The notes under the pieces: generated by a model
Told to the model about the DNA's origin: nothing
The model's input: only the letters and a program-made list of their open reading frames with translations
Databases searched by the model: none
In this document: positions 1 to 4,969 of the stretch, one piece after another
Numbering within the stretch: the stretch's first letter is position 1
Layout: each line of letters starts with the position of its first letter
Source: Acidobacteriota bacterium
GTDB taxonomy: Bacteria; Acidobacteriota; Terriglobia; Acidiferrales; UBA7541
Reading direction: 5' to 3'
DNA: 64,000 nucleotides
NCBI GenBank assembly: GCA_003223245.1
Contig: QHYI01000151.1
Coordinates: forward strand, 1 to 64,000
Made by a program: the position numbers and the translations under genes

Positions 1-418
1 CGACCAGACCGTCCACTTTCGCTTCCGACGCGCAAATCTCCACGATGAGCGACGTCGGCGCGACGTCGACGACGCGCGCGTCGAACACTTGCACGAGCTG
101 CATGACAGGCGCCCGATTGTTGTGGGTTGCGCTGACTTTGATCAGCGCCAGATCCCGGACCACCGCCGCGCGCGGCTGAAGGTCGTCGACGCGGATGACC
201 GGGACCAGCTTCTGCAGATGGGCTTTGATCCGCGCGGCCCCGCCGGCATCGGTCTGAACGACCACAGTCATTCGCGAGACGCCCGCCGTCTCCGAATTTC
301 CGACGCTCAGCGAATGGATATTGAAGCCGCGCCTCCGGAACAGCGATGCCACGCGATTCAGCACGCCCGGCTGATCCTCGACGTAAACGGCAAATATATG
401 CAGGGTGTCAGTCAGCAT
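1..418 (-). CDS. ilvN: Acetolactate synthase small (regulatory) subunit, 3' end off the window
   Basis: This is the regulatory subunit of acetohydroxyacid synthase, which binds valine and activates the catalytic subunit in Ile/Val/Leu synthesis. The translated N-terminus from ATG at 418 has the classic ACT-domain opening (HIFAVYVEDQPGVLNRVASL, residues 7-26), followed by the GFNIHSLSVG strand and the DLALIKV segment of the second half. The gene runs off the left edge, so about 139 residues are visible of a usual 160-180. It starts 2 nt after the ilvB stop codon and must be co-transcribed with ilvD and ilvB. Family assignment is secure; whether the rest of the gene (and an ilvC behind it) is intact cannot be seen. 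Confidence 0.93.
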   Translation of the reverse strand, partial: MLTDTLHIFAVYVEDQPGVLNRVASLFRRRGFNIHSLSVGNSETAGVSRMTVVVQTDAGGAARIKAHLQKLVPVIRVDDLQPRAAVVRDLALIKVSATHNNRAPVMQLVQVFDARVVDVAPTSLIVEICASEAKVDGLV

Positions 419-420
419 CG

Positions 421-2087
421 TTAGTCCGCGGCCGTCTCCGCGATCGGGTTCGGCCTCCGAATCATCGCGTGCAGATCGGCCCCGGCCGGGACCATCGGAT
501 ACACGGTGTCTTCCTGCTCGACGCGAAAATCGATCACGACGGGACCCGCATGCGCTCGCGCGTCCTCGATCGCCGGCAGCACATCGACGCGCGACGTGAC
601 GCGGCGGCTCCTGATGCCGAATGCATCCGCGAGCTTCGCGAAATCGGGCCCCGACAGCGGCGTGGCCGCGTAGCGCCTCTCATAGAAGAATTCCTGCCAC
701 TGGCGGACCATGCCGAGATAGCCGTTGTTGATGATAGCGATCTTCAGGTTGATTTTTTCCTGGACGATAGTGGCGAGCTCGCTCATGGTCATCTGGAACC
801 CGCCGTCGCCGACCACCACCCAAACTTCGGAGTCCGGCTTCGCGAATTTTGCTCCAATACCCGCAGGCAGCGCGAAGCCCATCGTGCCGAGCCCGCCCGA
901 GGTGATCAGCGTTCGCGGGCAGTTGTGGTGGTAATACTGCGCCTCCCACATTTGGTGCTGGCCCACGTCGGTGACCACGATGGCTTCGCCGTGCGTTTCT
1001 TTCCAGAGGTCATTAATGACGTGCGCGGCGTAGAGATGGCCGGTGTCCGGCAGGCTTTGGATGTCACGCACGGCGGAATCGCCCTTCAGCTCATGGATAT
1101 GGCGAATCCAGGCGCTGTGATCGCGTGTTTGGATGTGCGGGGTGAGATTTTCGAGAACTTCACGAGCGTCGCCCACCAGCGCCGCGTCTACTTTGACGTT
1201 TTTGTTGATTTCCGCGCGGTCAATTTCGATGTGGATCTTGCGCGCATTCTTCGCGTAGGTGCGAAGGTCGCCGGTAACACGGTCATCAAACCTCATGCCG
1301 ATGGCGATGAGCAAATCGGCTTCTTGAATCGCGTGGTTCACCCAAGCTTCGCCATGCATGCCCATCATGCCGAGGTTGAGCGGATCTTTCGCGGGAAAAC
1401 AACCGATGCCGAGCAAGGTCATCGCCACGGGATAGTTGCCCGCTCGAATGAACTGCTCGAAGGTGCGTATCGCGCCGGAAATCATAATGCCGTGGCCGGC
1501 GAGAACCACCGGGCGCTTCGCGGTGTTGAGCAATTCCACGGCACGGTCAAACTCGGCTTGATCGTGATTGTTGCGAATGCGCTTTGGCGGCAGCTTCGGG
1601 GCGCACGCGTCCCAATCAAATTCCGCACTGGCTTGTTGCGCGTCCTTCGTGATGTCTACGAGCACCGGGCCGGGGCGCCGGCTCTTGGCGATGACAAATG
1701 CTTCGCGAATTGTTCGCGCAATATCTTCGACATGTGTCACTACCACATTGTGTTTGGTGATTGGCATGGTGATGCCGGTGATGTCCGTCTCCTGAAATGC
1801 GTCGGAGCCAAGCACTTTGCTGCTTACCTGGCCGGTGATGCAAACGATAGGCGAGGAGTCCATCATGGCGGTGGCAATGCCCGTGACCATGTTCGTTGCG
1901 CCGGGTCCCGACGTCGCCATCGCTACGCCGTGGCACCTTGCTCGTGCCGCACCAGCACGTGATGCAATTTGGATTTGCCGAGCGCATCGTAAACCGGCAG
2001 AATTGCTCCGCCAGGATAGCCGAAGATTTCGCGCACGCCGAGGCGCGTCAGCGCCTCGCAAAGAATTTCCGCACCGCTTAGCTTCAT
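421..2087 (-). pseudogene. ilvB: Acetolactate synthase large subunit, interrupted by an internal deletion/frameshift
   Basis: This is the ThDP-dependent catalytic subunit of acetohydroxyacid synthase. Translation from ATG 2087 gives the true N-terminus ([39 protein letters not shown]) but stops at a TAG at 1925-1923. The rest of the protein continues in another frame from about 1929 ([17 protein letters not shown]) to the stop at 421, with the ThDP motif VVVGDGGFQMTM and the C-terminal region intact. Compared with the family, the conserved ADGYAR stretch between the catalytic Glu segment and [10 protein letters not shown] is missing, a net loss of about 40 nt that breaks the frame. Start 2087 overlaps the ilvD stop by 4 nt. 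As read, no full-length enzyme can be made. A metagenomic assembly error is an equally plausible cause. Confidence 0.9.
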
Positions 2088-3814
2088 ACCGACCTCACAT
2101 TCTGAAGAGGCTGAGCCGATGCCGTAAGAACAGCTGGGGGCGTGGTGACCGCGCCGAGCGAAGGTGAAGAAACCAGCAGCGCGTATTTGGCCATCACGCC
2201 GTTCAAGAATCGCGGAGCCGGCGGCTTCCACGAAGCCAGGCGCTTCTGGATTTCCGCCGCAGTAAGCCCCACGTTCAACTGGCGATTGGGAATATCGAAG
2301 GTGATGATGTCTCCATCGGCGACCGCTGCAATCGGGCCGCGGTTCGCTGCTTCGGGTGCAACGTGTCCTGCCATCAAGCCATGTGTGGCGCCGGAAAAGC
2401 GCCCGTCCGTCAGAAGCGCGACGGAATCGCCTAATCCTTCGCCAACGAGCGCCGCGGTGACCGCGAGCATCTCGCGCATGCCGGGCCCGCCTTTGGGTCC
2501 TTCGTACCGAATCACCACCACATCGCCCGCTTTGATTGCGCCCTTTTCGACAGCGGCAAACGCCGCTTCTTCGCTGTCAAACACGCGCGCGGGGCCGGTG
2601 AACTTCTGCAAATTGTGTCCGGCAACTTTGATGACGCAGCCTTCCGGCGCGAGATTTCCTTTCAGGATGACGAGCCCGCCCGTCGGTTTGAGCGGTGCGT
2701 CGAGTTTGCGCACTACCTCTTGCCCGGGCGTTTCTCTCGTCGCCTTTGCTTCTTCGCCAAGCGTGCGTCCTGTGACTGTGGGGCATTCACCGTGCAGGAA
2801 CCCACCTTCCACCATACGCTTTGCGACAAGCGCCGTTCCGCCTGCCGCGTACAGATCGGTAGCGACAAATCGTCCACCTGGCTTAAGGTCGGCAAGAATC
2901 GGTACGCGCGAGCTGATGCGGTCAAAATCATCAATGGAAAGAGGAATCTTGGCTTCATTCGCGATAGCCAGCAAATGCAACACGGAATTCGTGGAGCCGC
3001 CGGTGGTCGCTACGCCGGCGATGGCGTTTTCTATCGCCGATTTCGTGAGGATTTTCGACGGCGTCACATTTTTGCGAAGAAGATCCATCACCAATTCACC
3101 GGAGCGCCGGCCTGCTGTCGCCTTTGCCGGATCGGTGGCTGGGACGCTGGAAAGTCCCATCGGCGCGATCCCCAGAAATTCGCAGACCAGCGCCATGGTG
3201 TTCGCAGTGAACTGTCCTCCGCAGGCGCCAGCTCCCGGACAAGCGGAAGTTTCCAGCGTTTTGAGTCGCGCATCGCTCAGGTTGCCGCGCGCATGCGCGC
3301 CAATGGCCTCGTAGACATCCTGAATCGTGACCGCGTGCCCTTCAAACTTGCCAGGCGCAATGGAGCCGCCGTACAAGACAAGGCCGGGAATGTTCAGCCG
3401 CGCCAGCGCCATGACTCCTGCGGGAATGGTCTTGTCGCAGCCAACGAGAACGATCAGCGCGTCGAACAAATTGCCGCGCGCAACCAGTTCAATCGAGTCC
3501 GTGATGACTTCGCGGCTCACCAGCGAAGCGCGCATGCCTTCTGTGCCCATGGTGATGCCGTCAGAGATGGAAACGGTATTGAATTCGAGCGGCGTGCCTC
3601 CCGCGGCGCGAATCCCTTCCTTGACGTGTTCCGCCAGTTCCCGCAGATGGTAGTTGCAGGGACCGATCTCGATCCAGGTGTTGGCCACGCCAATAAGCGG
3701 TTTTTGAAAGTCGTCGTCCTTCAGGCCGCAGGCGCGCAACATGGCGCGTGCTCCGGCGCGATTTGCCCCGTCGATGAGTGCATGGCTTCGTGGCTTGAGC
3801 TGTTGGTCGGTCAC
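2084..3814 (-). CDS. ilvD: Dihydroxy-acid dehydratase
   Basis: The enzyme dehydrates 2,3-dihydroxy-isovalerate and -methylvalerate to the 2-keto acids of Val/Leu and Ile synthesis, using an Fe-S cluster and Mg. Family signatures are all present: [12 protein letters not shown] near the start, the cluster-binding GCDKTIPAG and [16 protein letters not shown] segments, and the C-terminal [14 protein letters not shown] chose the GTG at 3814 because it has GGAGG about 8 nt upstream and matches the usual family length (576 aa); the frame is open for 18 more codons upstream. It is the first structural gene after the ilv attenuator, and its stop overlaps the ilvB start (ATGA). It is full length, in contrast to its damaged neighbour. 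Confidence 0.96.
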
Positions 3815-3868: not shown

Positions 3869-3906
3869 AAAAAACTCAGGCCATCATCCGGGTTTGGATG
3901 ATGGCC
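3869..3906 (-). terminator. Intrinsic terminator (attenuator segments 3:4) upstream of ilvD
   Basis: On the minus strand a perfect 11-bp stem (GGCCATCATCC at 3906-3896, loop AAACCC, GGATGATGGCC at 3889-3879) is followed by TGAG and a run of six T (3874-3869). It lies 55 nt before the ilvD start and after the ilv leader peptide, so its natural role is conditional termination before ilvD. Confidence 0.9.
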
Positions 3907-4048
3907 GAATTCTTGTGCTTCGCTTTGGCTTATGCCGCCATCATCCGCTGGTGCGTCCTCCTACGAGGACGAAGCCAATTCCTACAAGCACGACACGTAC
4001 TCGGCCGCCCTGAACCACAGCGTGGCCGCTTCGCGTGTTGGTGATGGC
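3879..4048 (-). promoter_or_regulatory. Branched-chain amino acid attenuator with mutually exclusive hairpins
   Basis: Four repeats of one complementary motif are laid out in the order expected for transcription attenuation. Segment 1 is GCCATCACC (4048-4040), inside the leader peptide coding sequence. Segment 2 is GGATGATGGC (3946-3937), which contains the leader peptide stop codon. Segment 3 is GGCCATCATCC (3906-3896) and segment 4 is GGATGATGGCC (3889-3879). Segments 1:2 pair with one bulged A, 2:3 pair over 10 bp (antiterminator) and 3:4 pair over 11 bp (terminator). A ribosome reaching the stop codon would cover segment 2 and let the terminator form. A ribosome stalled in the Val/Leu/Ile codons would leave segment 2 free to sequester segment 3. 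The pairings are seen directly; the regulation is inferred from the enterobacterial ilv/leu/trp model. Confidence 0.85.
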
Positions 4049-4072
4049 GATGCTCGACATAGGTATCGCCAT
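3941..4072 (-). CDS. ilv operon leader peptide, Val/Leu/Ile-rich
   Basis: A 43-codon reading frame runs from ATG 4072 to TGA 3943-3941, 127 nt before ilvD. Its second half is packed with branched-chain codons (VRVVLVGIGFVLVGG), and an earlier stretch is also rich in them (SSIAIT and AVV). Only Ile, Val and Leu among regulatory amino acids are enriched, which matches the ilv genes that follow. There is no clear Shine-Dalgarno before ATG 4072. The best promoter places the transcript start at or next to that ATG, so translation may be leaderless, or may start at ATG 4060 or GTG 4018; all keep the regulatory codons. The peptide presumably has no function beyond being translated. Confidence 0.8.
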   Translation of the reverse strand: MAIPMSSIAITNTRSGHAVVQGGRVRVVLVGIGFVLVGGRTSG

Positions 4073-4076
4073 GAAG

Positions 4077-4104
4077 ATTATCAGGATGAGGCAGGGGAAG
4101 TCAA
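4077..4104 (-). promoter_or_regulatory. Candidate sigma-70 promoter of the ilv operon
   Basis: On the minus strand TTGACT (4104-4099) and GATAAT (4082-4077) are separated by 16 bp. The predicted start point falls at about 4072-4069, on or beside the leader-peptide ATG. A weaker alternative (TTGTTT with TAACTAT) lies further upstream. Confidence 0.55.
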
Positions 4105-4300: not shown

Positions 4301-4969
4301 ATGATTCGGGCTGTGAATATCCTTCTGAATGAAGTGGAATGCCGGATATTGGGATCGCTGGTCGAAAAGGAAATCACGACTCCGGAATACTACCCTCTTT
4401 CGTTGAACGCGCTGGTCAATGCCTGCAACCAGAAGTCGAACCGCGATCCAGTGATGAGCCTGGACGAGGCAGCGGTGCGCCAGGCGCTACGCTCCTTGGA
4501 AGGGCAGTCGCTAGTACGGTCAGTCAGCCCGGCGGACAGCCGCGTAACCAAGTACGAGCACCGGTTGCAAGAAGCCTTCAACTTCTACCGCCACGAGATT
4601 GCCATCCTGTGCCTGTTGCTGCTGCGCGGACCGCAAACTCCCGGGGAATTGCGCGGCCGCTCCGAGCGCATGCATAACTTCGACGACCTCGGAGCGGTGC
4701 AATCGAGTCTGCAGTATTTAATGAAGCGCGAGCCGCCCCTGGTGAAGCCGCTTCCCAGACAGCCAGGAACCAAAGAGACGCGCTATGCGCACCTGTTGTC
4801 AGGAGATGTGGCATTTGCGGAGCCGGAGCTCGGAGCCGAGCCTGGCACTGGAGTTGGCTCAATGGACGGCGACAGGATAAAAAAGCTGGAAGAAGAGATC
4901 GCGGAACTCAAGAACGAAATGGCGGACCTGAAACAGCAATTTGGCCTGTTTCGAAAGCAGTTTGAATAA
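4301..4969 (+). CDS. YceH-family protein (DUF480/UPF0502)
   Basis: This is a conserved cytoplasmic protein made of two winged-helix-like domains. The diagnostic family block is present near the N-terminus (ILGSLVEKEITTPEYYPLSL, then NALVNACNQKSNRDPVM, residues 16-52), followed by the second domain (LLLLRGPQTPGELRGRSERM, residues 104-123). The last 35 residues form a predicted coiled coil (KLEEEIAELKNEMADLKQQF). Start could be ATG 4301 or GTG 4313. It is transcribed divergently from the ilv operon and stands alone. The molecular role of the family is not established; a DNA-binding or regulatory role is suggested only by the fold. The 279 bp after it hold no recognisable gene. Confidence 0.9.
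   Translation: MIRAVNILLNEVECRILGSLVEKEITTPEYYPLSLNALVNACNQKSNRDPVMSLDEAAVRQALRSLEGQSLVRSVSPADSRVTKYEHRLQEAFNFYRHEIAILCLLLLRGPQTPGELRGRSERMHNFDDLGAVQSSLQYLMKREPPLVKPLPRQPGTKETRYAHLLSGDVAFAEPELGAEPGTGVGSMDGDRIKKLEEEIAELKNEMADLKQQFGLFRKQFE

Follow-up and report, generated by a model that had tools for sequence, protein, structure and literature searches.

A predicted ribosome-mediated attenuator of the ilvD-ilvB-ilvN operon in an acidobacterial genome, with related elements across Acidobacteriota

Ahead of the ilvD-ilvB-ilvN operon, in the analysed window (the whole stretch of acidobacterial DNA, 64,000 nucleotides in length), lies an element that we regard with high confidence as a ribosome-mediated transcription attenuator of this operon. 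Its sequence, its conservation, the pairing of its segments together with their compensatory changes, the geometry of a ribosome on its leader and a codon-to-pathway match across operons support this assignment, and we infer its start site, its translation, the stalling of ribosomes and a termination that depends on amino acids. The original prediction had read an ilv attenuator from the letters of this region, and all of the elements it claimed are present where it placed them, on the minus strand (the strand of the whole element and of its operon; positions are numbered within the window).

Architecture of the element and its operon

The attenuator region occupies the interval from a divergent gene at 4301 to ilvD. 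The operon comprises ilvD (dihydroxy-acid dehydratase, 2084..3814; NCBIfam TIGR00110, 692.6 bits, over the cut-off), which likely starts at GTG 3814 behind the Shine-Dalgarno sequence GGAGGA (3828-3823), ilvB (acetolactate synthase large subunit, 421..2090; TIGR00118, 617.5 bits, in two adjacent frames) and ilvN (acetolactate synthase small subunit, 1..424, cut by the contig end; translation read by eye). The gene order is thus the one originally proposed, though ilvB is frameshifted in the assembly: near 1925-1960 (1920-1965, minus strand) about 40 nt of the relatives' sequence are missing, so that HEQGATHMADGYARA of the relatives becomes HEQGATA* and the only good ilvB match of the genome is frameshifted, through either an assembly error or a real break.

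A consensus scan found a promoter-like TTGACT-16-GATAAT at 4104-4077. We delimit the promoter at 4075..4104, with the -35 TTGACT at 4104-4099 and an extended -10, TGATAATCT, at 4083-4075 (core hexamer 4080-4075), which is kept among relatives as TGnTAnnnT. The promoter is near-invariant across relatives and is retained in part even at loci without the attenuator. Just upstream of it stands an AT-rich block (CATAACTATTAATTGGACT / CATAACTATTAATTNGACTNATTGAC, about 4125-4107, up to 4099 with the -35) that may act as an up-element of the promoter or as a site for a regulator; CATAACTATTAATTNGACTNATTGAC is nearly invariant in the genus, its core is retained where the attenuator was lost, and a block resembling it occurs also at L033, L034 and L041.

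Given that the -10 ends just before the first ATG (4072), the transcript probably starts near 4069-4067, and its 5' UTR would be short and devoid of a Shine-Dalgarno sequence, none being obvious ahead of the leader start. The ilvBNC leader of C. glutamicum is reported to be translated though it lacks a ribosome binding site, as cited in PMC10272879 (its reference 16).

The leader had been proposed as a 43-codon peptide with a branched-chain-rich end. An ORF of this length is present (4072-3941) and ends as described, in VRVVLVGIGFVLVGGRTSG, but its start needs revision: in most relatives ATG 4072 is out of frame or is followed directly by TGA, and we rejected it, whereas the second ATG (4060) opens a conserved frame that in the majority of them runs for 35-39 codons. 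Since ATG 4072 overlaps the promoter and, among relatives, mostly falls outside the leader frame, we favour 4060 as the probable start, which gives a leader of 39 codons (MSSIAITNTRSGHAVVQGGRVRVVLVGIGFVLVGGRTSG, 3941..4060) with the stop TGA at 3943-3941 and a start and length kept in relatives. Its codons V21-V33 (VRVVLVGIGFVLV, 3962..4000), the candidate control codons, specify Val, Leu or Ile at 9 of 13 positions on translation, and VVRIIPVPVRG-type runs take their place in relatives. Across 24 relatives, V/I/L codons accounted for a fraction of 0.36 among the last 20 in the leader frame versus 0.10 and 0.16 in the other two, and the frame was open over 37 codons in 22 relatives versus 14 and 1; the last V/I/L codon stands most often 7 codons ahead of the stop (genus relatives). 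A short ORF, predicted to be translated and rich in codons for the products of the pathway, thus lies between the promoter and a biosynthetic gene.

Four segments can pair in the RNA. Segment 1 (TCGCCATCA, codons 4-7, 4042..4050) can pair with segment 2 (GGATGATGGC, 3937..3946), segment 2 can form an antiterminator with segment 3 (GGCCATCATCC, 3896..3906), and segment 3 can instead pair with segment 4 (GGATGATGGCC, 3889-3879; 3869..3889 together with the T-run). The 3:4 pairing is the intrinsic terminator, the 11-bp hairpin with a T-run that had been predicted (GGCCATCATCC/GGATGATGGCC, 3906-3879, then TTTTTT at 3874-3869); it stands ahead of the first structural gene, and the antiterminator excludes it. 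The leader stop TGA lies within segment 2, also as proposed. A further small hairpin (CGTCCTC-GTAG-GAGGACG, 3954..3971) spans the last control codons; about 78% of its cells are paired in relatives, and since its covariation does not exceed that of shuffles we do not count it as a defined segment. The fold of the region as a whole beats all 200 dinucleotide shuffles (z -3.44).

Conservation, pairing and ribosome geometry

A comparison of the regions upstream of ilvD among relatives had been suggested as a check on the prediction, and we carried it out within the genus, with a favourable outcome: the leader codons are kept, as are the position of the stop and the segments that pair, and compensatory changes appear phylum-wide. 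A covariance model of the attenuator core (R1) found it in 31 of 36 genus genomes (E 1.1e-7 or better, one strong site each; single-copy in the source genome), and upstream of ilvD segment 2 is conserved jointly with the promoter, the leader frame and the position of the stop. Three sets of genus loci count against the reading: ilvD is kept and the element lost at L015 and L024, the terminator is kept at L025, L026, L027 and L028 but no V/I/L-rich leader frame runs into the stop, and small indels shift the leader frame at L009, L012 and L013.

The alternative pairing was retained throughout the genus, with 96.7% of cells paired for 2:3 and 97.0% for 3:4 (slid controls 12-58%). The segments hardly vary there and double-sided changes are few, because each of the two middle segments has two partners, segments 1 and 3 in the case of segment 2 and segments 2 and 4 in that of segment 3. 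In a phylum set of 62 distinct sequences we counted 11 double-sided compensatory cells for 2:3 and 30 for 3:4, numbers that none of 500 shuffles reached in either case (kinship being ignored in both counts). The 1:2 pairing, which in an attenuator of this kind would permit termination when the leader is not translated, had 87% of cells paired in the genus (slid controls 18-72%), showed few double changes and did not clearly exceed shuffles.

The position of the ribosome had been proposed to decide the fold, and a masking model (RNA masked to 15 nt past the A-site codon, and ending at segment 3) agrees with this. With the A site at any codon up to G34 the computed probability of the antiterminator was 0.92-1.00; it dropped to 0.68 at G35 and 0.37 at R36, and was 0.00 for T37 and all later codons through the stop. 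In the model, segment 2 would thus be free with the ribosome on the control codons and covered with the ribosome at the stop, while the fall after G34 places V33, the last control codon, near the last useful stall position. The 1:2 pairing is predicted to yield to 2:3 once segment 3 is transcribed. Antiterminator and terminator are close in energy (-22.5 versus -20.6 kcal/mol), and after segment 4 has been transcribed the full RNA at equilibrium invariably folds into the terminator; the switch would hence need kinetic control, as other attenuators do.

We propose that RNA polymerase would begin near 4068 and that a ribosome would translate the 39-codon leader. Where too little Val, Leu or Ile tRNA is charged, the ribosome would stall on codons 21-33 with its leading edge short of segment 2, which could then pair with segment 3 as soon as the latter emerges, blocking the terminator and letting the operon be transcribed. 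Where these tRNAs are charged, the ribosome would get to the stop codon in segment 2 and cover this segment, 3:4 would pair, and transcription would stop at the T-run ahead of ilvD.

Related attenuators across Acidobacteriota

A second core model (R2), built from diverse members and used with a cut-off of E 0.001, matched 51 of 396 sampled Acidobacteriota genomes, from 31 genera and many with at least two sites. Among 80 named ilvD loci it matched five (L032, L033, L034, L037, L041), each carrying an Acidobacteria or Vicinamibacterales label, and none of those labelled with other phyla. We set aside six weak matches (L194, L212, L215, L217, L218, L220) as likely false positives, with no well-placed leader stop or no recognised downstream gene.

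The shared core (GGATGATG / GGCCATCATCC) precedes operons for different amino acids, and the leaders differ along with them. V/I/L leaders stand upstream of genes of the branched-chain type, namely ilvD, ilvB, ilvN, ilvA (threonine ammonia-lyase) and citramalate synthase (e.g., LAIIIRSIILPGSGSG, citramalate synthase); Thr-rich leaders upstream of aspartate kinase (e.g., METMTTTTTTIG, TMTRTTTITTGD) and homoserine dehydrogenase; and Cys-rich leaders upstream of a siroheme synthase domain gene (e.g., CPICSCCCTTMM) and of a gene for a PLP-dependent enzyme (Pfam PALP; e.g., CACPCCCPACC) that we take as cysteine synthase-like. For leader residue against pathway (branched-chain, Thr and Cys groups) the statistic was 20.4, which 0 of 100,000 label permutations reached (maximum 18.5), the better of two frames being taken for observed and permuted labels alike and kinship being ignored. 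Val-rich leaders before prephenate dehydratase looked like pathway mismatches at two loci, and we dismissed both by eye: ilvD comes next in L225, and ilvB, ilvN and ilvC come next in L226.

Other contexts were recorded alongside these. V/I/L-rich related attenuators precede LysR-type regulator genes (L160, L168, L187), and in L142 a LysR gene lies upstream of the ilvD attenuator (by eye). Leu/Ile-rich leaders of attenuator type have no recognised gene after them at L155, L161, L192 and L204; at L161 and L192 a short ORF (about 90 aa) follows, that of L161 without a Pfam match. The core also stands ahead of the gene for the large subunit of glutamate synthase (L165 and L206), with leaders that contain Thr and Ile (RSVTIMISAMT, TTAITKVKAITT), and upstream of MFS transporter genes (L162 and L173), where the leader has no obvious control residue.

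The foremost alternative to an attenuator would be an ordinary intrinsic terminator that acts constitutively in the interval from the divergent upstream gene to ilvD and happens to follow a chance ORF; it strikes us as very improbable. The hairpin and T-run by themselves would make a good terminator, and the binomial chance of 9 V/I/L codons in 13 is about 0.001 before allowing for the choice of stretch; yet segment 2 is conserved along with the promoter, the leader frame and the place of the stop, 2:3 carries compensatory changes, the leader codons track the pathway, and it would be pointless to set a constitutive terminator before the sole evident promoter of an operon.

T-boxes control ilv genes in some bacteria. 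So do ppGpp riboswitches (PMC10272879), and we considered whether an RNA that binds a metabolite or a tRNA (a T-box, a ppGpp riboswitch or another riboswitch) could act here in place of a translated leader. We hold this to be slightly less probable still, as conservation tracks codons, the leader residue shifts with the pathway, and Rfam gave no relevant family at the attenuator at gathering or permissive thresholds: at the gathering score the window yielded only a tRNA elsewhere and 16 related loci yielded none, and eight ilvB loci had no match up to E 0.5. A real attenuation that senses slow translation in general, and not branched-chain amino acids, would suit the commonness of Val, Leu and Ile codons and a leader without a Shine-Dalgarno sequence, but merits equally little credence in view of the Thr-rich leaders at aspartate kinase and homoserine dehydrogenase and the Cys-rich ones at cysteine synthase-like and siroheme synthase genes.

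An unexpected feature of the family concerns the end of the leader. Overlapping the leader stop by an ATGA, the mini-frame ATG ATG GCG GCA TAA (3930..3944) supplies a second, out-of-frame stop. A stop within 4 codons in this frame was found in 33 of 58 attenuators versus 1 and 2 in the other two frames, or, weighted by family and gene, in 18.1 of 29 groups versus 1.0 and 0.5, counts to which a training-set bias of the model possibly contributes, with several of the stop forms absent from the training set. The forms vary (ATGATGTAG, ATGAGGTGA, ATGATGGCCTGA, ATGATGGCGGCATAA), and some elements have their leader in the mini-frame, ending at its stop. Two readings suggest themselves, a guard against re-initiating ribosomes entering the terminator, or a tolerance of leader frameshifts, of which L012, where a 2-nt loss puts the leader onto the mini-frame stop, would be a case.

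Relation to known attenuators and significance

In the proteobacterial ilvGMEDA, ilvB and thr attenuators, a leader with control codons has its stop beside or inside segment 2, and a 2:3 pairing competes with a 3:4 pairing that forms an intrinsic terminator; the thr genes have Thr/Ile-rich leaders. By description, the architecture here is like that of these E. coli and proteobacterial systems, with the differences that the gene order is ilvD-ilvB-ilvN and that one core serves different amino acids. Attenuation of E. coli ilvB is cited in PMC10272879. Among the uORF attenuators of ilvB in that paper is the ilvB-OMG motif (41 representatives in various phyla, with a uORF rich in branched-chain amino acids and Thr). 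Our element resembles this motif as a predicted uORF attenuator of ilvB; no such Rfam family was matched at permissive thresholds, and the two appear distinct but may overlap. The ilvBNC attenuator of Corynebacterium (ilvB-II motif) is alike in its upstream ORF rich in branched-chain amino acids and its terminator, and differs in phylum and in the lack of an Rfam match here.

Premature terminators were predicted in Acidobacteria by Naville and Gautheret (2010, PMC2965389), almost none with an associated function, and to those authors' knowledge leader peptides had been known from Proteobacteria and Actinobacteria alone before their own cases in Firmicutes. The original prediction knew of no described acidobacterial example, which agrees with the literature that we found: it contained no earlier leader-peptide attenuator for Acidobacteriota, a search of incomplete coverage that leaves priority uncertain. 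The mechanism is classical; the phylum-wide family, the core shared across amino acids and the paired stops appear to be new. As a broader proposal, which we advance tentatively and would not press, a phylum-wide attenuator family may be built on one core (GGATGATG / GGCCATCATCC) and fitted to Val, Leu, Ile, Thr and Cys operons by leader codons only, with many members bearing a second stop, paired with the leader TGA but out of frame (an ATGATG...stop that overlaps this TGA), which would end re-initiating or frameshifted ribosomes before the terminator is disturbed.

An attenuator of this kind extends a textbook form of regulation to a large and poorly studied soil phylum. The core before ilv, thr and cys genes offers a way into the amino acid regulation of uncultured bacteria and an aid in assigning functions to operons, its many natural variants lend themselves to tests of how an attenuator is set by its leader codons, the place of its stop and the pairing of its segments, and the paired stops raise a specific question of ribosome re-initiation.
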